Source: Steroidobacteraceae bacterium
GTDB lineage: Bacteria; Pseudomonadota; Gammaproteobacteria; Steroidobacterales; Steroidobacteraceae
Direction: 5' to 3'
Length of the DNA stretch: 64,000 nt
Assembly (NCBI GenBank): GCA_017853555.1
Contig: JAFMJH010000004.1
Coordinates: 62,001-126,000, forward strand
Shown here: one piece after another, positions 23,681 through 43,327 of the stretch
Layout: the number at the start of each line of letters is the position of its first letter
Position numbering within the stretch: the first letter of the stretch is position 1
Notes under the pieces: model-generated
What the model was told of the DNA's origin: nothing
What the model saw: only the letters and a program-made list of their open reading frames with translations
Databases searched by the model: none
Made by a program: the position numbers and the translations under genes

Positions 23681-23713
23681 ACCACGCGCTCCGATAAATG
23701 ACGTCCAATGTGA

Positions 23714-23737
23714 AAGCGGGGGCACGTGCCCCCGCTT
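23714..23737 (-). terminator. 24-base perfect palindrome, probable terminator of the TonB receptor gene
   Basis: AAGCGGGGGCAC/GTGCCCCCGCTT is perfectly self-complementary and, read on the minus strand, is followed by TTTCA. It lies 59 bases after the stop of the 995-residue receptor and 33 bases before the dehydrogenase start. It fits a strong GC hairpin terminating or attenuating the receptor transcript; the short T-run makes read-through likely. Confidence 0.6.
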
Positions 23738-26876: not shown

Positions 26877-27075
26877 AGACTCGGCTCTTCGGGTCGCAAT
26901 GGAGGCGATTTCACAGTGTCGCCACGTGGATGCGTCAGCCGGAGACATCCACCCTCGCGCCCGCCGCGATGCGCCAGGAATGGCGGAAAATCACCGTCAA
27001 ATCGATCGAGTTCGGCTTTCGCACCTGCTCGACGGCCGGGTCGGGGTCGCCTTGACACCACTCGGACCGAGGTTT

Positions 27076-27089
27076 GACAATCGATTTCA
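27076..27089. promoter_or_regulatory. Operator-like half-palindrome (site C) upstream of the RraA-family gene
   Basis: GACAATCGATTTCA. On the minus strand it reads TGAAATCGATTGTC, identical to the ideal TGAAATCGATTTCA in its first 11 bases, imperfect in the other arm. It is 74 bases before the ATG of the RraA-family gene. Confidence 0.4.
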
Positions 27090-27162
27090 TCGTCGGCGTT
27101 TCCTCCCTCGATTCTTCGGGCGCACCCGAATGACTCCCACTCCCCGCCTCGAGGCCGCATCC

Positions 27163-27834
27163 ATGCTCAAGACATTCAACGATTTCACCCGCAGACCCGA
27201 CCTGCTTGCCCGGTTCGACAAGCTCATGCCGAGCTACTCGATCTCGTGCATTTTCGCGGACGTGATGTATCGCCAGAACGTGATGGCCTCGGCAATAAAA
27301 CCGGCCTTCAAGGCGAAGGCCGTTGGTCAGGCGGTCACGGTACAACTCTCCGGCGGTGACTTGGTCGATCCGCTCAAGGCTCTTGAAATGGGGCAACCCG
27401 GCGACATCATCGTGGTCGACGCCGGCGGCGATACCGAGACGTCGGTGTGCGGCGGTCTCATGGGCGGTCTGGCGAAAAATCGCGGTATCCGGGCGATGAT
27501 CGTCGACGGCGCCGGCCGCGACATCGACGAGCTCGAAGACATCAACTGGCCGATCTGGACGCGCGCAATCACGGCACGCGGCACACACACGATGTTTTCA
27601 CAACGCAAAGAAGAGCTTTCCATCAATGTGCCAATCGCATGCGGCGGCGTGGTCGTGCGCCCTGGCGATTTCATCGTCGCCGACACGATTGCAGTGGTGG
27701 TGATACCTCTCGAACGCGCTGACGAGTTTTTGACTTTGGCGGCAGAACAAGCCGACCGAGAACAGCGGACCCGCGAGTGGGTCGCCAAGGGCAAGACCAT
27801 TGAAGACTTGTTGAACGAATTCGGTCGTATTTGA
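27163..27834 (+). CDS. RraA family protein (class II 4-hydroxy-4-methyl-2-oxoglutarate/oxaloacetate-type aldolase-like)
   Basis: 223 residues matching the RraA/MenG-like fold: GGxxxxxAxxRGxxxxxVDGxxRD is clear as GGLMGGLAKNRGIRAMIVDG then AGRDIDE near residues 103-130. The Arg and Asp of this pattern form the metal/pyruvate site in the aldolase branch. Members cleave 4-hydroxy-2-oxo acids or decarboxylate oxaloacetate; true RraA, the RNase E inhibitor, is shorter. The ATG at 27163 has a GAGG stretch 8 bases upstream; an alternative ATG at 27130 has none. It begins an operon with the MFS and Sel1/oxygenase genes, suggesting action on a sugar-acid breakdown product. Confidence 0.82.
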   Translation: MLKTFNDFTRRPDLLARFDKLMPSYSISCIFADVMYRQNVMASAIKPAFKAKAVGQAVTVQLSGGDLVDPLKALEMGQPGDIIVVDAGGDTETSVCGGLMGGLAKNRGIRAMIVDGAGRDIDELEDINWPIWTRAITARGTHTMFSQRKEELSINVPIACGGVVVRPGDFIVADTIAVVVIPLERADEFLTLAAEQADREQRTREWVAKGKTIEDLLNEFGRI

Positions 27835-27861: not shown

Positions 27862-29151
27862 ATGAATGGTAAATCGGAAAAGCTGAGCCGCATCCAGAAG
27901 ACTGCAGTCTCTTTGCTGGTGATCGCCGGCCTTATCAACTATCTCGATCGCAGCACCCTCTCGATCGCCAACAACTCCATCAGCACCGAAATGGGGTTTA
28001 CCGCATCCGAGATGGGGTTGTTGTTATCCGCATTTTCTTTGGCATACGCGTTCGCACAACTGCCGGTCGGGGTTTTGCTGGATCGCCTGGGCGCGCGACT
28101 CGTACTCGGCGTCAGCATGTTCGTCTGGTCCTTGGCTCAGCTGCTGGCGGGCTTCGTGCAGTCAATGCAGCAGTTTCTGCTCGCACGAGTGTTTCTCGGC
28201 ATCGGCGAGGCTCCGCAGTTTCCTGCCGGAGCCAAGGTGTTCAGCGAGTGGTTTGCGTTGCACGAGCGAGGTCGCCCGAGCGGCATCTTCACGGCGTCAT
28301 CGACGATCGCGCCGGCTCTCGCGCCACCGTTACTCACCGGACTGATGCTGGCGTTCGGCTGGCGCGGAATGTTCGCTGTCATGGGCGCGCTAGGAATTGC
28401 GGCAGCGATAGGCTGGTACCTCATATACCGTGACCGACGCGACGTTCAGCTCGAAACGGACGAGATCCGGTATCTGGACGGCAGCGAAACAACCACGCAA
28501 TCCGATGCACCGATTTCTTTTGCCGATTTTCGCAATCTGCTTACGCAACGCACCACGCTCGGCTTGTTGTTCGGCTTCATGGGCGTGATCTACATGGTAT
28601 GGCTCTATCTGACGTGGTTACCGGCTTACCTCGAGCGCGAGCGTGGGCTGTCGATCGCGACGCTCGGTTGGGTCGTTGCCATTCCGTACCTTGCGGGGAC
28701 ACTCGGAATGGTGTCGAGCGGGATGATCGCAGACTGGCTGCTGGCGCGTGGCCTGAAACCCATCGCAAGTCGTAAGTGGCCCATCTGCATCGGCCTGATC
28801 TGCGCAGCCGGATTCACCGTCCCGGCCGCTTACACCCCGAATCTCACGCTCGCGATCACGTACATCTCTTTGGCGATGTATTTCGTAAATCTCGCAAGTG
28901 GAGGGTCGTGGGCGCTCGTCAGCGTTGCTGCACCGCGTCGTCTGGTTGCTTCGCTCGGTGGCCTCAAAAACTTCGGTGGATACCTCGGGGGATCGGCTGC
29001 GCCCGTGATCACCGGGATGGTGGTCGATTCCACCGGCTCGTTCGTCAACGCGTTGCTGATCAGCGCCGCGGTCGCGGCGGTCGGCGCGTTGTTCTATCTG
29101 TTCGTGGTCCGTGACCCGATCGTCGACGACGCGGTTGCTGAAGGACGTTGA
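27862..29151 (+). CDS. MFS transporter, ACS family (hexuronate/galactonate type)
   Basis: 429 residues and 12 predicted helices. Helix 1 has INYLDRSTLSIAN, helix 2/3 the GVLLDRLGARLVLG A-motif, and RVFLGIGEAPQFPAGAKVFSEWF follows helix 4; these are signature segments of the anion:cation symporters such as DgoT, ExuT and GudP. It should carry aldonates or uronates with protons into the cytoplasm. An AGGAGAC ribosome-binding site precedes the ATG. It lies 27 bases after the RraA-family gene in the same operon and is the likely importer linking periplasmic oxidation to the cytoplasmic kinase/aldolase steps. Confidence 0.9.
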   Translation: MNGKSEKLSRIQKTAVSLLVIAGLINYLDRSTLSIANNSISTEMGFTASEMGLLLSAFSLAYAFAQLPVGVLLDRLGARLVLGVSMFVWSLAQLLAGFVQSMQQFLLARVFLGIGEAPQFPAGAKVFSEWFALHERGRPSGIFTASSTIAPALAPPLLTGLMLAFGWRGMFAVMGALGIAAAIGWYLIYRDRRDVQLETDEIRYLDGSETTTQSDAPISFADFRNLLTQRTTLGLLFGFMGVIYMVWLYLTWLPAYLERERGLSIATLGWVVAIPYLAGTLGMVSSGMIADWLLARGLKPIASRKWPICIGLICAAGFTVPAAYTPNLTLAITYISLAMYFVNLASGGSWALVSVAAPRRLVASLGGLKNFGGYLGGSAAPVITGMVVDSTGSFVNALLISAAVAAVGALFYLFVVRDPIVDDAVAEGR

Positions 29152-30121: not shown

Positions 30122-31150
30122 TCACTTGAATGCCGGCGTCTGCCCCGCCAGTTTCACGTTGAGCTTGTACAAACTTGTCTCGGCAGTGATGTACAAAGTC
30201 TTACCGTCGGAACTCCAAGCAAGATTCGACGGCCCCTCGGGAACCTTGATCGTGCCGAGTTGCCTGCCATCGGGGGCGAATACCCAAATTCCTCCCGGAC
30301 CAGTCGCGTAGACATTACCGGCGGAGTCGGTCTTCAATCCGTCGGGAACTCCAGCCTCAGGCGAGGAGGTAGCATCGGCAAACACTTTGCCATTCGAAAG
30401 TGTGCCGTCAGCAGCCACTTCGTAGCGCATCCAGAGCCGCTTTCCTTGCTCTGAACTCGAGACGTACAACAACTTGTAATCGGGCGAGAACGCAATGCCG
30501 TTCGGCAAGGTCAAATCTTTTGCGGCGAGAGCAACCTTGCCCTTACTCACGCGATAGATCCCGTTCACAGGCTGTTCTTTCGACGGATCATCATTGGCTT
30601 TCGGCAACCCGAAGGGCGGATCCGTGAAGAAGAACGAACCGTCCGGAGCAAAAACCAAATCGTTCGGGCTGTTGATGCGTTTTCCGGCGTAGCGATCGAC
30701 GAGAGTCGTCACTTTGCCGTCGATGCCGATCTTCACGATGCGGCGATTGCCGTGCTGACACAGGACGACGTCGCCATCCGGACCCACGGCCATGCCGTTC
30801 GGACCAATGTACCCCCCGGGCGGAAGATCTTTGCCATCGTAACCGCCGGGATTCATCACCTCGCTGACCTTGCCGTCCGGAGTCCAGCGATAAAGCACGT
30901 TGCCCACGAGATCGCTGAACATCACCGAGCCGTCGGGGCGTGCAAGCGGCCCTTCGATGAACTTGAAGCCGCCCGCCAATTTTTCGACCTTGGCGTCGGA
31001 GGCGACCAGAGTATCGAGCCCCGGATCGAGCTTTACGATGCCCGACGGTGACGGGGGTGCTGTCTGCGCAGGAGGCGGCGCCTTGGCGCACCCAACAGCG
31101 GTCAGGACCAGGCAAGGCACCAAAAGTCGAATTGCAGAGTTGATATTCAT
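30122..31150 (-). CDS. SMP-30/gluconolactonase family lipoprotein
   Basis: 342 residues with a lipoprotein signal (lipobox TAVGC, residues ~17-21), then a six-bladed SMP-30 propeller. EGPLARPDGSVMFSD near the start is the first metal-ligand region (Glu), with SPNDLVFAPDGSFFFTDPPFG and LPNGIAFSPDYKLLYVS supplying the Asn and Asp ligands of the family; VPDGLKTDSAGNVYATGP closes it. It would open aldonolactones such as glucono- or galactonolactone to the free acids in the periplasm. I chose ATG 31150 because it starts the signal. Divergent from the Tat-exported isomerase gene, with operator site D between them. Confidence 0.92.
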   Translation of the reverse strand: MNINSAIRLLVPCLVLTAVGCAKAPPPAQTAPPSPSGIVKLDPGLDTLVASDAKVEKLAGGFKFIEGPLARPDGSVMFSDLVGNVLYRWTPDGKVSEVMNPGGYDGKDLPPGGYIGPNGMAVGPDGDVVLCQHGNRRIVKIGIDGKVTTLVDRYAGKRINSPNDLVFAPDGSFFFTDPPFGLPKANDDPSKEQPVNGIYRVSKGKVALAAKDLTLPNGIAFSPDYKLLYVSSSEQGKRLWMRYEVAADGTLSNGKVFADATSSPEAGVPDGLKTDSAGNVYATGPGGIWVFAPDGRQLGTIKVPEGPSNLAWSSDGKTLYITAETSLYKLNVKLAGQTPAFK

Positions 31151-31206
31151 GGTTGTGTTGCTACACGGTGCGGGTGAATCTATGATCGGACGAGAATAAT
31201 CGGCTT

Positions 31207-31220
31207 TGAAAACGTTCTCA
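31207..31220. promoter_or_regulatory. Operator-like palindrome (site D) between the lactonase and TIM-barrel genes
   Basis: TGAAAACGTTCTCA differs by one base from a perfect palindrome and by one from the site near 26863. It lies 57 bases upstream of the lactonase start and 55 bases before the isomerase start, so it could control both divergent genes. Confidence 0.6.
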
Positions 31221-31274
31221 ACCCGGATAAAAGCCGCTTCTCGCTGGGGACACATCGCTACAGGAGCTACCGCC

Positions 31275-32351
31275 ATGACCGGAAAGATTACCCGTCGTGC
31301 AACCATGACCGCGGCGCTCGCCGCAGGACTCACAGGCAGCGGCGGAGCCGACTCTGCGCCGAACAAAGCGACGATGAAAAAGTCGGGTATTGCCGGTCTC
31401 TCGCCTGTTTGGGGAGAGGATTTCCTGTACCAATGGAGCCCGCCCGAGGCGCTGAAGCGCGATCTCACCCCCGGCCCGTCCCACATTCGCCTGAGCAGCC
31501 AGAGCACACCTCGGCTGACCGGCGAAGAAGGCGTCGACTACGCGAAACTCTTCAGGTCGATGCGTGACGGCGGCTGGAGCGCTTGCGAAACCGCTTCTGC
31601 CGGGTGGTTGGCGCGCAAACGTTCCGAGTCGGAAATACGCGAAATCAAAACTCAGGCGAAAGCGAACGACATCGTCTTCTACGGTATTCACTGTGCCGGC
31701 AACATCATCGCACCGGACCCCGACGCGGAACGCTGGCAACGCCACATCATCGATGCCATTCATTCCGCTGACGAGATGGGATGCCAATTGGTTTTGACGC
31801 ACGTTGGCAGCATGTATCCGAATCGAAACACGCCTCACCCGAAAAACTGGAGTCGTGAGGCCTGGAATCGATCGGTAAACGCGCTCAAGCGTATTTGCCG
31901 CGATACGGCGGGAGTAAAGATCGACATCGCGATCGAAGCCGTGAATTCGGAGTCAATCAACAATCCATGGGCACACAAGCGGTTGCGCGAGGATGTGGGC
32001 GACCCGCGCATTACCGTCGGTCTCGATGTCACGAATATGGTGTTCTCCAACACCGCATTCCGCATGACCGAGTTGATCGATACGACATTCGATCTGCTGG
32101 CCGATCAAATCGCATACGTTCATGCCAAGGACTTTTCCTGGAACAGCATGATGCCAGGGCTCAACTGGGCGATGATTGGTACAGGGAACATGGATTACGA
32201 AACGTTTCTCGCGCGTGTGAGCCGACTCAAGCGGCCGACCAACATGCTGGTCGAATTTCTCACGACCAACGAGGAATACCAGCAGGCGCAACGAAACATT
32301 CGTTCAATCGCGCAGAACATCGGCGTCAAAATCTACGGTACTCAACCCTGA
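31275..32351 (+). CDS. Tat-exported sugar phosphate isomerase/epimerase-like TIM-barrel protein
   Basis: 358 residues. The N terminus is MTGKITRRATMTAALAAGLT, an RR-containing region plus hydrophobic stretch, compatible with Tat export. The xylose-isomerase-like (AP endonuclease 2) barrel carries a typical divalent-metal set: Glu221 (IAIEAVN), Asp251 (GLDVTN), His283 (YVHAKDF) and Glu327 (VEFLTT). The start is ATG 31275 with AGGAG 8 bases upstream; a longer TTG-started frame reaches 31206 and would run through the operator. Known relatives isomerise, epimerise or act on 3-keto sugars. Its exact reaction is unknown. Followed by the small exported protein at 32354 in the same unit. Confidence 0.85.
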   Translation: MTGKITRRATMTAALAAGLTGSGGADSAPNKATMKKSGIAGLSPVWGEDFLYQWSPPEALKRDLTPGPSHIRLSSQSTPRLTGEEGVDYAKLFRSMRDGGWSACETASAGWLARKRSESEIREIKTQAKANDIVFYGIHCAGNIIAPDPDAERWQRHIIDAIHSADEMGCQLVLTHVGSMYPNRNTPHPKNWSREAWNRSVNALKRICRDTAGVKIDIAIEAVNSESINNPWAHKRLREDVGDPRITVGLDVTNMVFSNTAFRMTELIDTTFDLLADQIAYVHAKDFSWNSMMPGLNWAMIGTGNMDYETFLARVSRLKRPTNMLVEFLTTNEEYQQAQRNIRSIAQNIGVKIYGTQP

Positions 32352-32910: not shown

Positions 32911-34563
32911 TCAATTGACGACGTAGAGCAAACTCGCCGTCTTGTCGGAGAGATTGATATTCGAATGGGCGCTGATCCCGTTCGGCGGTGCGCGATAGGC
33001 CGATCCCATCGGCAACCGTCGCAGCTGCTTGCCGAGTAAGACGTCGATATCGCCGTCGGTCGCAATCCAGATTTCCTCGGTATCCTTGCCCGCGCTATAT
33101 GGGCGCGACATGGCCATGGCACGAAGCTCCACCATGTTGACGCTTCGGTACTGCGCCAAGCCGTCGTCTCGAACAAATAGTGTGCGCTCCGAATTTACCC
33201 ATGAACGCGTGATCGGATCGACGTTTCGCCCATCGACAATGCGGAGACTCTCTGATGGCTTCGCTCCGGCAGCAATCTTTTCGCTGATGGCATAAAAGCT
33301 CATGTATCGGTCGCCAGTGGCGGTGAGCTTGAAATCGAGCCCCGGCGTCAGCAAAAACGCCATGCCTTTTCTTAGATCGTGCCGCTCATTGCCTACGACG
33401 ATGGTCCCGGTGCCGGATTGGACGACGAACGTCTGCTGCTGTCCATACAACTCATCTTTTACGGCATGGGCGGAGGATCCCGGCTCGAGCATCACGTAAC
33501 TCACCGCTTCCGCATGCGTCAGTACCGCGCCTTTTCGTGTCGGCCGCAGTGCGTCACCGCCCTGTGCAGCCGTGAGCAAATCCCGAAAATACATGTTGCC
33601 GTGCATGATGCGCGGAAACGAATCGCGCCAATCACCGATGAACATGTCGATGTCGGGCTCTACCGTCCGGTTGAAGGGCGTGTTGTCCAACATCGCATAG
33701 TCGACGGCCTCCGCCTGCGGGCTACGCCCCGTTGCCGCCGGCCCCATGAAGATCATTTGCACCGGTTCATCACCGACGTTCAAGTTGCTGTGCGGCGTGA
33801 TTCCCGTCGGCGGGATTTTGTATGCTTCTCCCGCGCGCATCCGTCGCAAGTGCTTGCCAAGCATCAGCACCGTTTCCCCTTCGACCATCAACCAGCACTC
33901 CTCTGCAGGATGACTGTGGGGATGAGGGATCGTGCGCGGTGCGATCGTTATCAAACTCATGCCGCTCGGGCCACCGTTCCCGATGTGCACCCAGTGATTG
34001 CCGATGCGCCGATCATTGTCGAAGCGTTGAACGACTACGACATCGGCCCGCGGTTGATAATTCGTCGGTAGCGGCTCGGTGCGCACGTAGAAAATCAACG
34101 CTTCAGAGCCGATTGCCGCAATAGAGAAATCGAACTCGGGTGTCAACGTAAAGCCTGTTCCCTTGCGTACCGGATAAGCGGTACCGTTGACAACGAGCTT
34201 CCCTTCGCCGCTCGCGGTGTAGAAAACCTGACGCTCGCCGCTGACCGCGCGCCCGCTGGCTTTCGCACCAGGCGCCAAGGTCGCGCGACTGATCGCGGTT
34301 ATTCCCACGAGCACGGCCCCTTTCTTTTTGGGGCGCAACGGATCGCCCCCCTCGAGCGGCGTGAGAATGTCCTGCACCAACAAACTGCCGTACAACTTGC
34401 GTGATTTCGCCTTGCGCCAATCATTGATGAAAAGGTCAATGTCGGGGTCGACCGCCGAGTCGATCGGGCGCGGGTCCAATCCGTCTTGCCGCGCCGCATC
34501 GGCCGGCAAGGAAAACGTCGACAGGCAACACGCCGCGAACGTCAGCAGCAAAAAATTCTTCAT
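32911..34563 (-). CDS. Secreted tandem-duplicated four-cupin protein
   Basis: 550 residues with a Sec signal (MKNFLLLTFAACCLSTFSLPADAA). The mature part consists of two similar halves. Each begins with a D/E-PDIDLFI/MFIGDW segment, then a first cupin (VFYTASGEGKLVVNG / TFVVQSGTGTIVVGN), then a second (IPHPHSHPAEECWLMVEGE...GITPHSN / TEEIWIATDGDIDVLLGK...GISAHSN). Only the second cupin of the first half retains a full HxH...E...H metal set; the others are degenerate. I know no named family with this layout. It follows the lactonase-like gene by 4 bases in the operon from 36932, so a role in sugar-acid or lactone chemistry is likely (inference). Confidence 0.82.
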   Translation of the reverse strand: MKNFLLLTFAACCLSTFSLPADAARQDGLDPRPIDSAVDPDIDLFINDWRKAKSRKLYGSLLVQDILTPLEGGDPLRPKKKGAVLVGITAISRATLAPGAKASGRAVSGERQVFYTASGEGKLVVNGTAYPVRKGTGFTLTPEFDFSIAAIGSEALIFYVRTEPLPTNYQPRADVVVVQRFDNDRRIGNHWVHIGNGGPSGMSLITIAPRTIPHPHSHPAEECWLMVEGETVLMLGKHLRRMRAGEAYKIPPTGITPHSNLNVGDEPVQMIFMGPAATGRSPQAEAVDYAMLDNTPFNRTVEPDIDMFIGDWRDSFPRIMHGNMYFRDLLTAAQGGDALRPTRKGAVLTHAEAVSYVMLEPGSSAHAVKDELYGQQQTFVVQSGTGTIVVGNERHDLRKGMAFLLTPGLDFKLTATGDRYMSFYAISEKIAAGAKPSESLRIVDGRNVDPITRSWVNSERTLFVRDDGLAQYRSVNMVELRAMAMSRPYSAGKDTEEIWIATDGDIDVLLGKQLRRLPMGSAYRAPPNGISAHSNINLSDKTASLLYVVN

Positions 34564-34567
34564 GGCC

Positions 34568-35710
34568 CTACTTCCAGAGTATGAAAACGGGAGCGGAAAC
34601 TTTGGCGCGTGAAATTTCCGCACCGACGGCACCGGAATCGCCATCGACGGGAAACACTACCAACTCTCCACTGGCCTGATTGGCGGCGAGCAAGAACTTG
34701 CCGGCAGGATCAAGGTCGATGAAGCGCGGCTGCTTTCCGCCCGATGGCGTGAGTTGGTTACGCACCGGTATTCCGTCAGCGCCCACATTGAAGTGCGTCA
34801 CGGAGTTGCTGTCGCCGCGGTTGGAGATGTAAAGACTTTTGCCAGCCGGATGCAGCACTATTTCCGCACTGCTGCGACGACCTTTGTATTCGTCGGGCAA
34901 CGACGAAGTCACTGCCACTTGAGTGAACGTCCCCCGACGGGCATCCCACCGCAAGGTGATGACTCCCGGATTTAGTTCTGCAATTACGTATGCAAAATGT
35001 CCATCGTGCGAGAAGACGATGTGTCTCGGCCCGGATCCGGGCGGCACCGCGAAGGTCCCGACCTGATGCTCGGTCAGACGACCGACTCGCGCATCGAATC
35101 GATAGACGAATATCTTGTCCGCACCCAAGTCGATTGATACGAGATATTTGCCGCCCGGAGCGGTCACCAGTTGGTGCGAATGCGGCCGTTGCTGGCGCGG
35201 CATCACCGGGCCCGTGCCCTGTTGATGAACGACCTGCACGGCCTCGGCCAACGTTCCGTTGCGACGAATGGGGATCACCGCGATGCTCCCACTCGCTTTG
35301 ACGGCGTAGTTCGCGACGAACAGCCAGCGTCCGCTGCGATCGATACTGAGATAGCAGGGATCGATGCCGGCTGACGACACCGTACCGAGCAAGCGCAGCT
35401 TTTGTCCGCCAGCGCGGTCGAATTCGAATGCACTGATGCGATCAAACCCGTCTTGAGTGCCGTTTTCATTGACACTGTACAGAAATCGACCGTTCGGATG
35501 ACGAACCATGAACGAAGGATTGTCCGTTTCAGCTGCGACGGCGATATCGCTCAAGACACCGGTGTCCGGATCAAACCGGAAGGAATAGATGCCGAGGCTA
35601 CCCGTCGGATTTCCGTTGGAGGTGGTGTACGTACCGATCCATCCCAGACGTTCAGCTGCTTGTAGTTGCGACGCAATGGCGAGCAAAAGAAAGCTGATCA
35701 GCAGTCTCAT
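34568..35710 (-). CDS. Lactonase family protein, 7-bladed beta-propeller (6-phosphogluconolactonase-like, secreted)
   Basis: 380 residues with a Sec signal (MRLLISFLLLAIASQLQAAE). It begins with the Pgl/YbhE family pattern IGTYTTSNGNPTGSLGIY, followed by NPSFMVRHPNGRFLYSVNE, DPCYLSIDRSGRWLFVANY, PHSHQLVTAPGGKYLVSIDLGADKI, GPRHIVFSHDGHFAYVI (segments given separately) and QPRFIDLDPAGKFLLAANQ. Cytosolic Pgl works in the pentose phosphate path; the signal peptide here moves the activity outside, so an unphosphorylated sugar lactone is a more probable substrate. A GGGAGACCGAG site precedes ATG 35710. Confidence 0.9.
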   Translation of the reverse strand: MRLLISFLLLAIASQLQAAERLGWIGTYTTSNGNPTGSLGIYSFRFDPDTGVLSDIAVAAETDNPSFMVRHPNGRFLYSVNENGTQDGFDRISAFEFDRAGGQKLRLLGTVSSAGIDPCYLSIDRSGRWLFVANYAVKASGSIAVIPIRRNGTLAEAVQVVHQQGTGPVMPRQQRPHSHQLVTAPGGKYLVSIDLGADKIFVYRFDARVGRLTEHQVGTFAVPPGSGPRHIVFSHDGHFAYVIAELNPGVITLRWDARRGTFTQVAVTSSLPDEYKGRRSSAEIVLHPAGKSLYISNRGDSNSVTHFNVGADGIPVRNQLTPSGGKQPRFIDLDPAGKFLLAANQASGELVVFPVDGDSGAVGAEISRAKVSAPVFILWK

Positions 35711-35732
35711 ATCTCGGTCTCCCGATTGTGGT

Positions 35733-36932
35733 TCAGCGCGGCGCAGATCGAATCGACGCCGGCCCCCCCGATAAATCCAGACGCTGACCCGTATCAACGA
35801 GACGCCTGCCCCGAACGGCATAAACGGCGATTTGCTTCTCGACGTTGAATTGCACCAACACGCGTCGCCCATCGGCTGTGAAAGTGATTCCCTGCGCCGC
35901 CTCGCCACCAGGGACGTCGTCGAGTTTGCGTATATCGCCGTCGCGATTTTCGAACAGCAGGACGCGCCCACGCTTGATACGCGCCGGATTGTCAGGGAGT
36001 AGATTCGATCCGTTCATCGCTTGCACCGCGATCAATCGGCCATCCGGCGAAATCGTAACGCCCTCGGGTGTAGACGGAACCGTAACGTGTTGGACCGCAC
36101 GAAACGGGCGATGTGAAACGTCGATCAACGTGAAGGAGTCGACGTCCGCCGCCAAACGACCGGCATTCGCCAAACTCGCCAAACCCGCGTTACCGACCAC
36201 CGCCCATTTGCCGTCACTCGATACCTCGATTGAATACGGGCCTACGCCACTCGCAATCCGCTCGCGCGCCGTACTGACGCGTCCGCGGTCGATGTCGAGC
36301 ACCATCAAGCCTTGCTCATCACGCAGCGCCACAAGCGCGGCTTTGCCGTCGTGCGTGAAACTGATGCCGGATAATCGACGCTCCGAAATTTTGAGGGTAT
36401 CGCGCAAGGTCATTTTTCCCTCGGCGATATCGAGTACCGCAACCGTACCGGCGAGCGTGGCGGCCAACAACAGCGTACCGTCTCGATTGATCGCCAGCCC
36501 CTGCGGATGAGACCCGAGTTCGATGCGATCAACCAGCCGTGCCGGCGTCGTCGTCAGATCGACGACTTGCAAAAAGCTGCCTAGGACCACTGCCTTGGAC
36601 GCGCGGTCGTAGTAATTCGGGCTCGATACGATCGCCAGACGACCATCGGGCGTGATCGCAACCCCTTGCGGCGGGCCCGCCAACGTATGGCTCACCGGCA
36701 CCGACGCGACGACGCGCAAACCTCCGGCTGCGGCATCAAGAACCGTGAGCGTGTCGGCGCCGACGCCCTCGGGGTAAGTATCCGCGCCCTCCACACGTTG
36801 ATACTTTGCGTCGTTGGCCGAAACGATCAGATCGGCACCGGCCGCGCTCACCGCCGTGAAACGCCCGGCAAGACAAAACAGGATAAGCACGGGCATGATC
36901 GACCTGAGAAGGCTCGGGACGACGGAGTTCAT
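35733..36932 (-). CDS. Secreted YVTN-type beta-propeller protein
   Basis: 399 residues with a Sec signal (MNSVVPSLLRSIMPVLILFCLAG..., cleavage near TAVSAAG). Repeats of the pattern GVAITPDGRLAIVSS, GLAINRDGTLLLAAT, GISFTHDGKAALVA, SIEVSSDGKWAVVGN, GVTISPDGRLIAVQ and GITFTADGRRVLVQ describe a seven-bladed propeller. Such proteins bind or degrade ligands; some are lactonases, others have no enzyme activity. A GGAGG site is placed 9 bases before ATG 36932. First gene of the 36932-32911 operon, divergent from the ManD-like dehydratase with site E between them. Function unknown. Confidence 0.85.
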   Translation of the reverse strand: MNSVVPSLLRSIMPVLILFCLAGRFTAVSAAGADLIVSANDAKYQRVEGADTYPEGVGADTLTVLDAAAGGLRVVASVPVSHTLAGPPQGVAITPDGRLAIVSSPNYYDRASKAVVLGSFLQVVDLTTTPARLVDRIELGSHPQGLAINRDGTLLLAATLAGTVAVLDIAEGKMTLRDTLKISERRLSGISFTHDGKAALVALRDEQGLMVLDIDRGRVSTARERIASGVGPYSIEVSSDGKWAVVGNAGLASLANAGRLAADVDSFTLIDVSHRPFRAVQHVTVPSTPEGVTISPDGRLIAVQAMNGSNLLPDNPARIKRGRVLLFENRDGDIRKLDDVPGGEAAQGITFTADGRRVLVQFNVEKQIAVYAVRGRRLVDTGQRLDLSGGPASIRSAPR

Positions 36933-37016: not shown

Positions 37017-38351
37017 ATGAACAGTCGTCGCAACCTGATGAAGACCCTGACCGCCGCCGCCGTAACCGCCTCTCTCGCCACGCGCGAGTCGGTGGCGCAG
37101 ACCAAAGTCGACCATGCGGCGCGTGGCATGAGCTCCCCGAAGATTAAGGACGTCCGGGTCATCGCGGTCCAACCGGCCAACGTCCGACTGATCGTGGTCA
37201 AGGTGATCACCGATCAGGACGGCCTCTACGGGTACGGCTGCGCAACGTTCACCCAACGTGCCGAGCTTGTCGTGGCGGCAATTGAAAAATACTTGAAGCC
37301 GTTCTTGATCGGTCGACCGGCCGATCGTATCGATGATTTGTGGCAAGCAATGTACTTCAGTTCTTATTGGCGTAACGGCCCCGTGCTCAACAATGCCATC
37401 AGTGGTGTCGACCAGGCGCTTTGGGACATCAAGGGTCGACAAGCGGGATTGCCCGTCTATCAATTGCTCGGAGGCAAGTGCCGCGAGGCCGCCACGCTAT
37501 ACACCGGCGTGAATGGTCGCGAGCCGGCACAGATCGTCGACGGCATACGCAAGCTGCAAGGATCGGGATATCGACACTTCAGGTTCAACGTCGGCGGCGA
37601 AGGCACGGGCGATACCACCTCCGGGCGAGCGGACGTGCTGCACTCGTCGCCGCTCTTCGATCGCAAAGCGTACATCCGCAATATCATCAACACTTTCGAG
37701 GCGATTCGGAAAGAACTCGGCCCCGACGTCGAGGTGATGAACGACGTACACGAAAAGGTTACGCCGACGCAGGCTTTGCAGTTGTGCAAAGACGTCGAGC
37801 AGTATCGCCCGTTCTTCCTCGAAGATCCGTTGTCTCCCGAAGATCTCGCTTATTACCGAATAATCAGACAGCAGTGTTCAACGCCGATCGCGATGGGTGA
37901 ATTGTTCAACAGCCCCCACGAATGGATGCCACTGGTGACCGAGCGCCTGATCGACTACATACGCATTCACGTTTCCCAAGCGGGAGGCTTGACCCCGTGT
38001 CGAAAAATCGCCGTTCTCGGCGAGCTGCATGGCGTCAGAACGGCGTGGCACGGCCCGGCCGACACATCGCCTGTAGGACACTGCGCGAACGTCACGCTGT
38101 CGGTTGCGGCCTACAACTTCGGGATTCAGGAAATGGCGCAATTCAATGAGGCCACACGCGAGATCTTCAAAGGTTGTCCGGAAGTCAAAAACGGCTACGC
38201 CTACCCGAACGAAGCGCCCGGTTGGGGCGTCGAAATCGACGAAAAAATGGCAGCCAAGTATCCGTTCAAGTACGACAATAGCGAACGCGGCAAACTCAAC
38301 TATGGTTGGGGCGATCTAAGATTGCCGGACGGCACCGTCATCAAACAGTGA
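37017..38351 (+). CDS. Enolase-superfamily sugar-acid dehydratase (ManD/RspA-like) with Tat signal
   Basis: 444 residues. The N terminus reads MNSRRNLMKTLTAAAVTASLA, with SRRNLMK at residues 3-9 close to the Tat consensus. The mandelate-racemase/muconate-lactonising fold follows: metal ligands Asp243 (with His245, VMNDVHEK), Glu269 (FFLEDPL) and Glu295 (AMGELF), and the ManD-type catalytic/substrate segment WHGPADTSPVGH at 344-355. Family members dehydrate aldonates such as mannonate or gluconate to 2-keto-3-deoxy acids. An export signal on this cytoplasmic family is unusual. It sits between the propeller/lactonase/cupin operon and the PQQ dehydrogenase, consistent with periplasmic dehydration of the acids. 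Substrate not determined. Confidence 0.87.
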   Translation: MNSRRNLMKTLTAAAVTASLATRESVAQTKVDHAARGMSSPKIKDVRVIAVQPANVRLIVVKVITDQDGLYGYGCATFTQRAELVVAAIEKYLKPFLIGRPADRIDDLWQAMYFSSYWRNGPVLNNAISGVDQALWDIKGRQAGLPVYQLLGGKCREAATLYTGVNGREPAQIVDGIRKLQGSGYRHFRFNVGGEGTGDTTSGRADVLHSSPLFDRKAYIRNIINTFEAIRKELGPDVEVMNDVHEKVTPTQALQLCKDVEQYRPFFLEDPLSPEDLAYYRIIRQQCSTPIAMGELFNSPHEWMPLVTERLIDYIRIHVSQAGGLTPCRKIAVLGELHGVRTAWHGPADTSPVGHCANVTLSVAAYNFGIQEMAQFNEATREIFKGCPEVKNGYAYPNEAPGWGVEIDEKMAAKYPFKYDNSERGKLNYGWGDLRLPDGTVIKQ

Positions 38352-38363
38352 TCGTGTTCGCGC

Positions 38364-40490
38364 TCAAGGCAGCGCGAACACGACATAGGTTGCCGAATCG
38401 ATCGACGGCCCGGAATTGGTGTCGACGCCGGCGCTTCTGCGCGGGCTCGCCGCAATCACGACATATTGCTTGCCATTGACCGAATATGTTGCCGGTGTCG
38501 CCACGCCGTGCCCCGGCAAAGCGCCCTCCCACAGCATCTTGCCGTTCGCGCTGTCGTACGCCCGGAACTTGAGATCGTTCTCGCTGCCACCTGCAAACAG
38601 CACGCCGGTAGCCGTCAGGACGGTCCCGCCGTGGCTGTCGGAGCCGGTGTCCTTGAGTCCTTTGGCGGCCAGCTCCGTGTACTGACCGTAAGGAACCGTC
38701 CAAAGATAAGAGCCGGTGTTCAGATCAACCGCGCTCAAAGTACCCCAAGGCGTCGGACCTGCCGGATATCCCTCGGGATCGGTGAAATACTTGTATCCCG
38801 TAAACACGTATTTGGTATTTGCGCCGGCACTGCCGCCGCGACGTGAATTGTCAGCCACCGCGTCACGACCGGAGGTGAGATAGGAAATCACGTTGGTCAC
38901 TGCAGAAGCCGAGAGGGACGGAAAGCCGACCATCCGACCGCGACCGCGCAAAATAACCTCGGTCATCTGCTCGGCGGTCAATCGCGAACCGATATCCACC
39001 AGCGCCGGTATTGCAGGTGGTGCTCCCTTGCGCTCCGATCCATGACAAATCATGCATTGCGCGCGATACGTACGCTCTCCTTGGCCACTCTGCCGATAGG
39101 ATGCCGCTTCGGCAAGCGTCCCCAAAGAATAGGCATTGTTCACGTTGGCGTAGATGATTCCACGCTCGGGATCTGCCGTGATTCCGCCCCACTCGACACC
39201 GCCCTTCCAGCCCGGCGCAACTAACGTTGGCCGATCGATGCTGAGGGGGGTGAACGGTTGAGTTGCACCCAGGAAACTGTCGTATTCATTGCGCGCCCAA
39301 TCACGCAACGCTGGCGTGCGCCCCGTTATCTCCGAGCGTTCAAGAGTCTGCCTGGCGAGGGGTCGCGGCAATTGCGGAAAGGGCTGCGTCGGGCTCGTCA
39401 CTTCCCCGGGCACCGAACTCTTGGGCACAGGCTTGTCGATTATCGGAAACAATGACTCACCGCTCACGCGATCAAAGACGTAGATGAACCCCCACTTGTT
39501 CGTAGCGGCGACAGCGTCGATTCGCTTGCCGTTGCGATTGACGCTCAACAGAACCGGCGGCGCGGCGAAGTCCGAGTCCCAAAGATCGTGCTTAACGGCC
39601 TGGAAATGCCACAACTTCTTGCCGGTGTTCGCATCGAGTGCAATCACGCAGTTCGAATACAGATTGTCACCCGGTCGATTCACGCCGTAGAAATCATCCG
39701 ACGGCGAACCGGTCGCGATAAACACGATACCGCGCTTAATGTCGACGATCGAGCCGGCCCACGCATTGGCACCACCTTGCGAGCGGCGAGCTCCGGCGGG
39801 CCAGGTCTCGGCGCCAGGCTCGCCGTCTTCCGGCACGGTGCGAAACGACCAGCGCATTGCACCCGTGCGCACGTCATAGGCACGCTCATCGCCCGGCGAA
39901 GCCGGCGTCGTTTCCGCAACGCGACCACCTACGATCAGCAAATCTTTGTATACGACTGGCGGCGTAGTCGCGGCGAAGACGTTGTCTTCGGGAGCGCCAC
40001 GCAAGTTTGCCCGCAAGTCTATTTTGCCCTGGTCTCCGAATGACGAAATTGATGAGCCGGTTTCGGCATCAATCGCGTAGAGATAGCTAGCGACCGATGC
40101 GAAAAGTCGACGCTCTCTTCCGTCCGACCAATATGCCAAACCGCGCGTCGGATTCCCCGTTCCGATACCCGAGTCGAACGTCCACTTGACCTTCCCGTTC
40201 GTCGCATCGAGTGCGACTATTTTTTGCCGCGCGGTGACGACGTACATCACGCCATCGACAACCAGCGGTGTGCTCTGCACCGGACCGGGATCGGGCGTAA
40301 CGAATCGCCAAGCTTCCTTCAGGCCGGCGACGTTGCTGCGCGTGATCTGCGTGAGCTTCGAGTAATGTGTTCCAGCCTCGTCTCCGTGATAGGACGGCCA
40401 ATTCTCGCCTGCTGCCGCGGCGACGACGCCGCACGCCAATGCCAGTACGACCCCCCACAAGCGACTTGCATTCGTTTTTTGAAACAACAC
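38364..40490 (-). CDS. PQQ-dependent dehydrogenase with internal cytochrome c site (copy 2)
   Basis: 708 residues from GTG 40490, which has GGAG 8 bases upstream. The Sec signal ends near VVAAAAGE. The mature enzyme begins NWPSYHGDEAGTHYSKLTQI, typical of quinoprotein dehydrogenases, and shows propeller blades (KVKWTFDSG, AMRWSFRT, KLWHFQAVKHDLWDSDF). The haem motif CMICHG is at about residue 480, followed by the last blade(s). It is a paralogue of the gene at 21545 with the same domain order. Likely electron acceptor: a periplasmic cytochrome. It follows the mutarotase-like gene by 24 bases and is cotranscribed with it. Confidence 0.87.
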   Translation of the reverse strand: MLFQKTNASRLWGVVLALACGVVAAAAGENWPSYHGDEAGTHYSKLTQITRSNVAGLKEAWRFVTPDPGPVQSTPLVVDGVMYVVTARQKIVALDATNGKVKWTFDSGIGTGNPTRGLAYWSDGRERRLFASVASYLYAIDAETGSSISSFGDQGKIDLRANLRGAPEDNVFAATTPPVVYKDLLIVGGRVAETTPASPGDERAYDVRTGAMRWSFRTVPEDGEPGAETWPAGARRSQGGANAWAGSIVDIKRGIVFIATGSPSDDFYGVNRPGDNLYSNCVIALDANTGKKLWHFQAVKHDLWDSDFAAPPVLLSVNRNGKRIDAVAATNKWGFIYVFDRVSGESLFPIIDKPVPKSSVPGEVTSPTQPFPQLPRPLARQTLERSEITGRTPALRDWARNEYDSFLGATQPFTPLSIDRPTLVAPGWKGGVEWGGITADPERGIIYANVNNAYSLGTLAEAASYRQSGQGERTYRAQCMICHGSERKGAPPAIPALVDIGSRLTAEQMTEVILRGRGRMVGFPSLSASAVTNVISYLTSGRDAVADNSRRGGSAGANTKYVFTGYKYFTDPEGYPAGPTPWGTLSAVDLNTGSYLWTVPYGQYTELAAKGLKDTGSDSHGGTVLTATGVLFAGGSENDLKFRAYDSANGKMLWEGALPGHGVATPATYSVNGKQYVVIAASPRRSAGVDTNSGPSIDSATYVVFALP

Positions 40491-40514: not shown

Positions 40515-41540
40515 TCAGGTCTTCACGAAAAATCGGTAACGTACGCTCCAACGCACGGTCCTGCCTGGAAGTACAAGCACGTGTACATAACCTTCGGGAC
40601 ACGCAGTACGGGAGTTTGCCCAAAACACCACCCGAGTCAGCGGCAGCGATCCGGTTTGCTGAACACCGGCGCCGGTCTTGGCATTTTCGATCGTGAAATC
40701 GAACTGCGAGGGTTCACTCGAGAATCCCAGAATTTCACTAGTCGAGGTATCGCCCGGCGCGAATTCCCGGTCGAATACGATCGCTTGCCCGTCGATTCGC
40801 GCACCGTTGCGCAATGTACGAAGCGCCTCAGGCTTGAATGGAAATCGGATGCTGATGTCCGGCCCGGTCGGCGTATCGTCGAAGACGAAGAAGTCATGGT
40901 AATAGGTCTGCAAATCGATGACCTTCGAACCGGTGTTCTTCATTTCATGTTCGACGATCAGAATCGGCTCCTTCGCATCGAGCCGCAAAGTCTTGTCATA
41001 ACGATATGCGATTCCGATCGGCGAGGAGAGTTCATGCCGGAACCAAACACGGTCTTTTGAAGGCTTGACGGTCCACTTGCCCGGATCGATCACCGGATAT
41101 TGAAAATTGAAGCTGTAGGGAGTGGTATCAACGCGGCGCAACACCCCTACGCCGGGTTTCACGAACGCCTCGCCGGGCTTCGCATCGTCATATCCTGGGG
41201 AACTAATGCTGTCAGCGGCGCGAAACTCCTCCACCGGACCGCTGACGTGATCGCGTGTTCCCGGGGTCGCATTCGCAGCCCAAAGTCCGAAGAACCCATG
41301 GCCTTTGTATTTCAAACAGGAGACTACGCCGGCCCAGTCAAAGCGCGTTCCGCGATAAAACCCTTTGTCACGGTCGGGCAGCATGACGATTGCGTCGACG
41401 GTGCCGTTCGTTATGCGCGCGTGCGGCGCGTCCGCGGGCTCGGCGGGCCCGCAACCTTCGCTCGCAGCGCGAGAAACCGCAGGCATCGCGGCGATCGCCA
41501 GCACGGCCAACAACGACAGCACACCAGCACGTTCGCTCAT
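40515..41540 (-). CDS. Secreted galactose-mutarotase-like protein
   Basis: 341 residues with a Sec signal (MSERAGVLSLLAVLAIAAMPAVSRAAS). The conserved region begins IVMLPDRDKGFYRGTRFDWAG and later has WVVF-type beta strands, HEMKNTGSKVIDLQTYYHDFFV and LPGRTVRWSVRY; this all-beta layout fits the carbohydrate-binding mutarotase superfamily, which interconverts sugar anomers or binds sugar. I assign it only at fold level. A GGGGAGG site precedes ATG 41540. It heads the operon with PQQ dehydrogenase copy 2 and has a good promoter and operator site F just upstream, so anomer supply to the dehydrogenase is plausible. Confidence 0.65.
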   Translation of the reverse strand: MSERAGVLSLLAVLAIAAMPAVSRAASEGCGPAEPADAPHARITNGTVDAIVMLPDRDKGFYRGTRFDWAGVVSCLKYKGHGFFGLWAANATPGTRDHVSGPVEEFRAADSISSPGYDDAKPGEAFVKPGVGVLRRVDTTPYSFNFQYPVIDPGKWTVKPSKDRVWFRHELSSPIGIAYRYDKTLRLDAKEPILIVEHEMKNTGSKVIDLQTYYHDFFVFDDTPTGPDISIRFPFKPEALRTLRNGARIDGQAIVFDREFAPGDTSTSEILGFSSEPSQFDFTIENAKTGAGVQQTGSLPLTRVVFWANSRTACPEGYVHVLVLPGRTVRWSVRYRFFVKT

Positions 41541-41580: not shown

Positions 41581-41610
41581 ATTATGCGCCAATCGCGGTA
41601 CACCTGTCAG
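41581..41610 (-). promoter_or_regulatory. Probable sigma-70 promoter of the mutarotase-like/PQQ dehydrogenase operon
   Basis: On the minus strand: -35 CTGACA (41605-41610), 18-base spacer, -10 CATAAT (41581-41586). It overlaps the last codons of eda. The closest of the promoters here to consensus. Confidence 0.5.
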
Positions 41611-42227
41611 ATCGGGCGTCGCAGGCCACTGGCCGTGGCGGCTGCCGCTCTGATCCGCGCCGGATCCGGCTGCTCGCGTTCCACGAGCCAAGTTCCACCA
41701 ACGCAGAGCACCTGAGGATTCGAAAGCCAGTCGGCGGCGTTCTGTTGCGTGATACCACCGGTCGGACAAAAGTGCACGCCTCGGAATGGGCCGCAGAGCG
41801 CCTTGAGCGCAGGAGGGCCGCCACTCGTGGATGCCGGGAAGAACTTGAAATGATCAAGACCGAACTCGAGGCCGCGCATGATGTCTGAGGCCGTCGCGAC
41901 GCCCGGCAAGAACGGAACGTTGCTGCGCGTAGCGGCTTTGGACAGCATCTCCGTGAGTCCCGGCGAGACGATGAATTGCGCGCCGGCAGACAAACTCGCC
42001 TCGAGATCTTGGGTATTGCACACAGTGCCGGCACCGACGATCGCACCGTCAACTTCGCTGATGAGCCGAATCGCTTCGAGCGCGCACGGGGTACGTAGCG
42101 TCACCTCGATGATCGGCAGCCCTCCGGCCACCAAGGATGCGGCGATCGACTGGGCGTGAGCAACATCGTCGATCATGAGCACCGGGATGACCGGCGCCAA
42201 AGTCATCAGATCGTGAATCGACTTCAT
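41607..42227 (-). CDS. eda: 2-dehydro-3-deoxy-6-phosphogluconate aldolase (KDPG/KHG aldolase)
   Basis: 206 residues. Class I aldolase of the Entner-Doudoroff pathway; it splits KDPG into pyruvate and glyceraldehyde 3-phosphate. Catalytic Glu is in IIEVTLRT near residue 41, and the Schiff-base Lys128 in HFKFFPAS; PVLMIDDVAHA, GAGTVC, PGVATASDIM and FCPTGGITQQN follow the family order. ATG 42227 is used; the preceding TTG at 42230 would add one residue. It is the second gene of the kdgK-eda operon (18-base gap). It is a distinct enzyme from dgoA at 20891. Confidence 0.94.
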   Translation of the reverse strand: MKSIHDLMTLAPVIPVLMIDDVAHAQSIAASLVAGGLPIIEVTLRTPCALEAIRLISEVDGAIVGAGTVCNTQDLEASLSAGAQFIVSPGLTEMLSKAATRSNVPFLPGVATASDIMRGLEFGLDHFKFFPASTSGGPPALKALCGPFRGVHFCPTGGITQQNAADWLSNPQVLCVGGTWLVEREQPDPARIRAAAATASGLRRPI

Positions 42228-42245
42228 CAACGAACCCGACCCGAA

Positions 42246-43253
42246 CTAGCGCCGGACATCTCGCGTACCCGCGACGAATGCGTCGATATCAGCTTGTGAA
42301 AATAGACTCGCATCGCCAGGAAGCGTGTGCTTCAACGCCGCCAGCGCGATGCCGGTTTCAGCCATGACTTTCAATGAATTTTGCTTCAGAAAGGCATGCA
42401 ATACGCCTGTCGCAAAGGCGTCGCCCGCACCGATTCGATCGACAATTCCGGTCAACTCCAATGCGTCGGTGCGGTGAGCGGCGTCACGCGCATAGACCTG
42501 ACCGGCAAGACGATGATGTTCCGCACTGGCGATGTTCCGGATTGTCGAAGCGATCAATTTCAAATTCGGCCACCGCTCGAACGCCATCGCCGCCGCACGG
42601 TCATCAGGGTCATCATTCGGGTTGAATTTTTGGCCCGACACCAAAGAGAAATCCACGTGATTTGCGAATAGAACATCAGAGGCGTCCATCATCGTGCCGA
42701 TGATCGTTGCCGAATCACCTCCCCACCTCTCCCACAATGATGCGCGATAGTTCACATCGAAGGAAACCGTCACTCCGAGCGAACGCGCAACTCGCGCTCC
42801 CTCCAAGACCATCGCTGAACTCTCTGCGCCGAGCGCACAGGTGATTCCCGATAGATGGAGTAATCGCGCGCCATCGAGCAATTTCGGCCAATCAATATCG
42901 GCTGGACCAGCCATCGCAAAGGCGGAGCGCTCGCGGTCATAGATGATCGCCGATGCCCGCGGTCCCGCCCCGGTTTCCAGAAAATAGAGCCCCATGCGAC
43001 CTGGGCGCTCGACCACGGCGCTGCAATCGACACCGCGCCCTCGCAGCGTCGCCTTGGCACTACGGCCCAATGCATTCGCCGGGACGAAACTCGCCATTCG
43101 GCATGAATGCCCCAAATGAGCGAGTCCAGTCGCGACATTCGCCTCGGCACCACCATAATGGACGTCGAGCCGCGGTGATTGAGTGAGCAACTCGTGGCCC
43201 GGCGCACCAAGACGCAGCAATAATTCACCGAAAAACACGCAGGGCTTATTCAT
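42246..43253 (-). CDS. kdgK: 2-dehydro-3-deoxygluconate kinase (PfkB/ribokinase family)
   Basis: 335 residues of the PfkB fold. Substrate-binding N-terminal part: CVFFGELLLRLGAPGHELL, then VHYGGAEANVATGLAHLG. The catalytic anion-hole motif GAGDAFATGV is near residues 272-281 with the catalytic Asp. The sequence and the partner aldolase favour 2-keto-3-deoxygluconate as substrate, although a fructokinase-like sugar kinase is not excluded. ATG 43253 has a GGAG site; the longer frame to 43310 lacks one. Divergent from the AllA-family gene by 74 bases. No copy of the TGAAA operator is seen upstream. Confidence 0.9.
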   Translation of the reverse strand: MNKPCVFFGELLLRLGAPGHELLTQSPRLDVHYGGAEANVATGLAHLGHSCRMASFVPANALGRSAKATLRGRGVDCSAVVERPGRMGLYFLETGAGPRASAIIYDRERSAFAMAGPADIDWPKLLDGARLLHLSGITCALGAESSAMVLEGARVARSLGVTVSFDVNYRASLWERWGGDSATIIGTMMDASDVLFANHVDFSLVSGQKFNPNDDPDDRAAAMAFERWPNLKLIASTIRNIASAEHHRLAGQVYARDAAHRTDALELTGIVDRIGAGDAFATGVLHAFLKQNSLKVMAETGIALAALKHTLPGDASLFSQADIDAFVAGTRDVRR

Positions 43254-43327
43254 CGTTCTCCGACTATAGTGTTTATGATTTGCCAGTGCCACCGGGGGAC
43301 GGGGCCCCATGAAGCGGTAGTAAAGTA

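Follow-up and report, generated by a model that had tools for sequence, protein, structure and literature searches.

An enolase-superfamily dehydratase-like protein with a predicted Tat leader in a Steroidobacteraceae genome and its leader-bearing homologues in Acidobacteriota

The dehydratase gene and its neighbourhood

The window, a stretch of 64,000 nucleotides, encodes at positions 37017–38351 of the forward strand (ATG start) an enolase-superfamily (MR_MLE) dehydratase-like protein of 444 amino acids with a twin-arginine (Tat) leader. Both Pfam domains pass their gathering thresholds, MR_MLE_C with 166.1 bits (threshold 29.4) and MR_MLE_N with 77.6 bits (threshold 22). A structure model calculated from 34 sequences had a mean pLDDT of 86 and a pTM of 0.84; its low-confidence parts were the leader (block means 54–61), the last ~24 residues (65–69) and residues 195–206 (pLDDT below 50). 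The top fold matches of the model were the gluconate dehydratases 3twa, 3tw9, 3twb and 3t6c together with 4ihc, probably a mannonate dehydratase, at 47–50% identity, and the top sequence matches among solved structures were ManD-subgroup gluconate dehydratases and, again, 4ihc. These structures have their metal ligands and histidines at the same positions as the window protein in the alignments. The gluconate dehydratases differ from it in the sequence of one loop and in that their alignments start at window residue 38, with no counterpart to the leader.

The metal ligands D243, E269 and E295 are conserved, together with H245, in all 103 close leader-bearing relatives (each locus counted once, by its best copy), as is H345. 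In the WHGP motif (residues 344–347), the tryptophan is present in 102 of these relatives and the histidine, glycine and proline each in all 103. The active-site residues and the WHGP motif that the earlier note had read from the sequence therefore stand. As far as the sequence can tell, dehydration is the probable activity of the protein.

The surrounding genes encode several proteins with apparent export signals, all of which were judged by eye. On the far upstream side, an RraA-like/aldolase family protein (26899–27834, forward strand) is followed by an MFS transporter (27862–29151, forward strand), a candidate importer whose best NCBIfam model is the D-galactonate transporter TIGR00893 (297.7 bits, short of the 395-bit cut-off). 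An SMP-30/gluconolactonase-like (SGL) protein with a lipoprotein-type leader is encoded on the reverse strand (30122–31150); its best PDB matches are 3e5z, a putative gluconolactonase, and then 3dr2, an exported gluconolactonase. A xylose-isomerase-like TIM barrel (31206–32351, forward strand) carries its own RR leader at an internal methionine and is a second possible Tat substrate in this island. Three further genes on the reverse strand lead up to the dehydratase: a cupin protein with three Cupin_2 stretches and a hydrophobic leader (32911–34644), a seven-bladed lactonase (PF10282) with a signal peptide at an internal methionine (34568–35971), and a second beta-propeller protein with a hydrophobic leader (35733–36932), the start of which was set by eye, the longest open reading frame extending to 37463.

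On the other side of the dehydratase, a PQQ dehydrogenase that includes a cytochrome c domain (38364–40490, reverse strand) is followed by a secreted-looking protein (40515–41540) whose family has no Pfam match and whose family profile found no convincing relative among solved structures (best E 0.5). Next come, both on the reverse strand, a KDPG/KHG aldolase (Eda; 41607–42230), which passes the TIGR01182 cut-off, and a 2-keto-3-deoxy sugar-acid kinase-like (KDG-kinase-like) protein (42246–43310), which passes no equivalog cut-off. The Eda and kinase-like genes are 3–5 kb from the dehydratase. A second PQQ dehydrogenase (21545–23725, reverse strand) was also identified, and in both of these proteins a cytochrome c domain lies between two propeller stretches. 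The flanks described in the earlier note are thus largely as it had them, with the SGL protein, the lactonase, the second propeller, the cupin and one PQQ dehydrogenase nearby; the exception is the second PQQ dehydrogenase, ~13 kb from the dehydratase. No Rfam match was found anywhere in the window at gathering thresholds.

The twin-arginine leader

The dehydratase opens with MNSRRNLMKTLTAAAVTASLA. Residues 1–30 (37017–37106, forward strand) make up the twin-arginine leader, MNSRRNLMKTLTAAAVTASLATRESVAQ, which is identified by its conservation in homologues and falls in a low-confidence part of the model. It contains SRRNLMK, and its highest 12-residue Kyte–Doolittle mean, 1.49, starts at residue 11; judged by eye, cleavage after SVA (residue 27) is possible. 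Taken alone, the RR motif is weak evidence, because a loose Tat-leader rule was also passed by 3.5% of shuffled window leaders and by 141 of 657 unrelated open reading frames with generously chosen starts. A chance RR motif was accordingly rejected on the conservation among homologues, not on the loose rule alone.

This conservation was assessed in 197 loci with a match, each represented by its best copy. From the census, 24 duplicates and L077 were removed; of three rows that were truncated by a contig end or had a late-opening frame, L158 and L202 (truncated) were set aside and L193 was retained; and L220–L225 and the extra copies in L043 were left out. Among homologues of at least 55% identity, 103 of 104 readable sequences pass the rule, with L152 as the sole miss and one more sequence cut by a contig end. 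On this evidence the leader is real. The fraction falls to 25 of 37 at 45–55% identity (one more was cut off), 8 of 14 at 40–45% and 1 of 15 below 40%. Five of the 12 misses at 45–55% (L188–L192) do carry an RR and a hydrophobic stretch, farther out than the rule permits; L193, scored as a miss, is cut inside the leader, and in L063, L065, L162–L164 and L204 neither feature was seen. The leaderless sequences L162, L163 and L164 (~54% identity) come from genomes that also hold a leader-bearing copy (G326, G299 and G466), and they may represent a return to the cytoplasm.

A single TatC match (243.1 bits) was found in the host genome. Both features looked for in a Tat substrate were therefore present, an RR with a hydrophobic stretch that is conserved in homologues and a TatC in the host. 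The proposal that a ManD-type enzyme here bears a Tat leader was thereby strengthened: it would have been undermined by a leader missing from close homologues, and the check came out in favour of the leader. Export of the dehydratase is likely, and is the firmest part of our reading. To our knowledge, the characterised members of the ManD-type dehydratase subgroup are cytoplasmic. No exported ManD-type enzyme was found in the literature as far as titles and the openings of abstracts tell, in a search that covered mainly open-access papers.

Catalytic loop, family assignment and a candidate route

The window protein scores below the cut-offs of the three dehydratase family models compared with it: 377.9 bits for the ManD equivalog NF043051 (cut-off 550), 364.8 bits for the subfamily model PRK15072 (D-galactonate dehydratase family, which we take to include RspA; cut-off 430) and 245.2 bits for the galactonate dehydratase equivalog DgoD (PRK14017; cut-off 311). 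ManD itself (2qjj) shares the fold, and its D210, H212 and R147 correspond to D243, H245 and R189 of the window protein, so that the arginine of what we take to be the Arg147/Tyr159 loop pair is kept. Tyr159, presumably the catalytic tyrosine, aligns with Thr200, and no tyrosine occurs in window residues 190–217, which leaves the pair expected of ManD without its second member. A mannonate-type reaction is therefore not to be assumed. The protein is an enolase-superfamily member of the mannonate/gluconate dehydratase kind, and the label 'ManD/RspA/DgoD-type' proposed for it is too specific. The ManD rows L081–L086 are also unlike the window protein in being without a leader.

Thr200 lies in a diverged active-site loop region (residues 163–216; 37503–37664, forward strand), where the window protein differs from its relatives by H164G, Q191N, P195E and Y200T. 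At the position of Thr200, 101 of the 103 close leader-bearing relatives have a tyrosine, one has a serine and one a gap. In a comparison of 64 rows, the window protein has its own residue at 21 positions where at least 90% of the rows agree, the changes around the active site including H242N and R247K as well as the four in the loop. Its identity to eight ccm-linked relatives is 0.27 in the loop and 0.67 elsewhere. A double frameshift was considered as the source of the odd loop, but the other two frames, inspected by eye, gave no relative-like loop. Because the loop is changed, the family gives no reading of the substrate. The loop of 3t6c, as aligned, also departs from the ManD pattern.

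A separate observation on this loop comes from the Bryobacterales genome fen_178, in which positions 1139–12729 of L043 hold eight tandem paralogues of the dehydratase, with further copies on other contigs of the same genome (L220–L225). The mean pairwise identity of the eight tandem copies is 0.19 in the loop and 0.73 in the rest, against 0.62 and 0.76 for eight hand-picked ccm-linked genes. With its variable loop on a fixed scaffold, the array would be a natural set of specificity variants.

On balance, and with moderate confidence, we favour a reading in which the exported dehydratase acts on an aldonate-like acid made outside the inner membrane, the product being imported by the MFS protein and passed to the kinase and the aldolase. 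A PQQ dehydrogenase and a lactonase would make the aldonate, or a near relative of it, outside the inner membrane, and Tat would export the folded, metal-dependent dehydratase to the periplasm. Enolase-superfamily enzymes of this kind work by abstraction of the C2 proton and loss of the hydroxyl at C3; the dehydratase would apply this metal-assisted chemistry to the aldonate in the periplasm. The resulting 2-keto-3-deoxy acid would enter through the neighbouring MFS protein, and the KDG-kinase-like protein and KDPG aldolase would process it once imported. We infer both the substrate and the import order of the product, and the substrate is the weakest step because of the changed loop.

Parts of this route have parallels. 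Sugars have been described as being turned into sugar acids in the periplasm and transported afterwards (PMC12076931); there, oxidation precedes TRAP import, whereas our proposal adds a dehydration outside. Large expansions of the enolase superfamily have been reported in SAR202, in passages that do not mention the periplasm (PMC10444878).

The changed loop also suits a different account, in which the enzyme is exported and its loop has diverged too far for mannonate- or gluconate-type dehydration. It would then act on some other external acid, such as an oligosaccharide-derived aldonate or a substrate for racemisation, and the kinase and aldolase would belong to a different branch. The 21 departures from largely fixed positions and the low loop identity to the ccm-linked relatives both fit this account, and the L043 copies show that the loop can vary widely on its scaffold. 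On the other hand, the metal ligands, H245 and H345 are intact, the top folds are gluconate dehydratases, one of which (3t6c) has a loop that is itself off the ManD pattern, and the kinase and the dehydratase are both absent from congeners. We consider this account unlikely, although it deserves serious weight.

That the enzyme is cytoplasmic, with the internal Met38 as its true start or with a leader that is vestigial, appears improbable. Met38 is the point at which alignments of the leaderless solved relatives start, and leaderless copies do exist at ~54% identity (L162–L164), but residue 38 is other than methionine in many of the close homologues, nearly all of which keep the leader (103 of the 104 readable). 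In several of them, for example L006, L028, L040 and L045, no more than a few codons of open frame precede MNRR, which makes the leader part of the protein. In the window itself, a GGGAG run found by eye lies 8 nt upstream of the leader's ATG at 37017.

Distribution, origin and wider meaning

A scan with one genome per species returned 79 loci, and the titles of 65 are acidobacterial. The only loci of at least 55% identity with other titles were L009 (Acidimicrobiia), L029 (Arcobacter) and L059 (Alphaproteobacteria), and these titles may be wrong, since all three fall among acidobacterial rows in the tree. In a 250-genome sample of the class to which L003 belongs, presumably Terriglobia, 89 genomes match at E ≤ 1e-110, 60 of these with at least 55% identity. 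At the same threshold, the genome of the window was alone in matching in a sample of 196 genomes of its order, and 4 of 398 genomes matched in a sample of its phylum, namely its own and three at 45–51% identity whose matches start no earlier than residue 38. Among plasmids, 126 records matched, none of them reaching 60% identity; the 15 matches listed lie at 48–50%.

In a tree built by a quick method, the window protein falls inside a 94-row clade (SH-aLRT 100) that contains few leaderless rows; the branch leading to it is flagged as long (0.58), and its position within the clade is not settled by the tree. Going by its sequence, the dehydratase belongs to a leader-bearing clade that is common in Acidobacteriota. 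The acidobacterial homologues L003, L018 and L052 (~60–66% identity) share its leader, metal site and clade, and differ from it in keeping the loop tyrosine and in the placement of their gene after ccmC. Among the leader-bearing acidobacterial homologues, no characterised member was found.

The genomic setting of these homologues is a different one. When the neighbours of the dehydratase were searched in loci L002–L086 (E ≤ 1e-15), SGL matches occurred in three loci, MFS matches in four and kinase matches in two; Eda, the PQQ dehydrogenase and the 40515–41540 protein each matched in one, and the lactonase, the cupin, the second propeller and the TIM barrel in none. Instead, ccmC lies directly upstream of the dehydratase gene in 37 of the 65 loci with enough sequence (from L002–L071, of which five more were too short; L065 and L066, among the 65, are non-acidobacterial by title). 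The notion that oxidation, lactone hydrolysis and dehydration form a conserved gene layout thus failed, and a conserved oxidise-hydrolyse-dehydrate cluster was rejected. In all 37 the dehydratase gene is on the strand of ccmC, and in L003 (5905–11326) the order is ABC-transporter gene, ccmB, ccmC and dehydratase. Of the two acidobacterial loci with a kinase homologue, L042 has it within 3 kb of the dehydratase, and L061 has it at a greater distance, next to an Eda homologue and another dehydratase copy of 39% identity. The 40515–41540 protein is matched in 58 of the 250 genomes from the class of L003 (E ≤ 1e-20). A link between it and the dehydratase was dropped: the two genes abut in L018 (G418) and are on different contigs or more than 100 kb apart in the genomes compared by eye.

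Within its own genus the dehydratase gene is absent from all 23 other genomes sampled (E ≤ 1e-40). The KDG-kinase-like gene was likewise confined to its own genome among 24 of the genus (E ≤ 1e-30). Neither absence is certain, because roughly half of the genomes in the genus are less than 90% complete. That the kinase and the dehydratase are both missing from sampled congeners is the best evidence for a pathway. When the segment 26.8–46.7 kb was compared with the congeners, 19 of 23 gave matches, nearly all within 43.4–46.5 kb and eight at E < 1e-129, and the island itself gave a few very short matches only. The contig is therefore one of this genus, with the island as an accessory. With the near homologues acidobacterial and the gene in none of the 23 congeners, lateral gain is likely, and we regard acquisition of the gene by lateral transfer as the simplest reading and probably the correct one. 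Its GC content of 57.8%, against 57.1–66.3% for the other window genes measured, gives no sign of a foreign origin.

A binning or assembly artefact that brought the gene or island in from an acidobacterial genome would equally account for acidobacterial near relatives and for the absence from 23 congeners, but it is scarcely credible, given congener-like DNA ~5 kb from the gene on the same 131-kb contig, a GC content inside the range of the other genes measured, a protein on a long branch of its own and a neighbourhood unlike the acidobacterial one.

Returning to the exported dehydratase as the preferred reading, we tentatively extend it to the clade as a whole, while doubting it more than the route itself: a large, undescribed, Tat-exported clade may serve a periplasmic branch resembling the Entner–Doudoroff pathway, in which the 2-keto-3-deoxy acid is what is imported and in which the loops have diversified for different external acids. 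Should export be real, such sugar-acid chemistry would take place in the periplasm of an important group of soil bacteria, which would change the compound that is imported.
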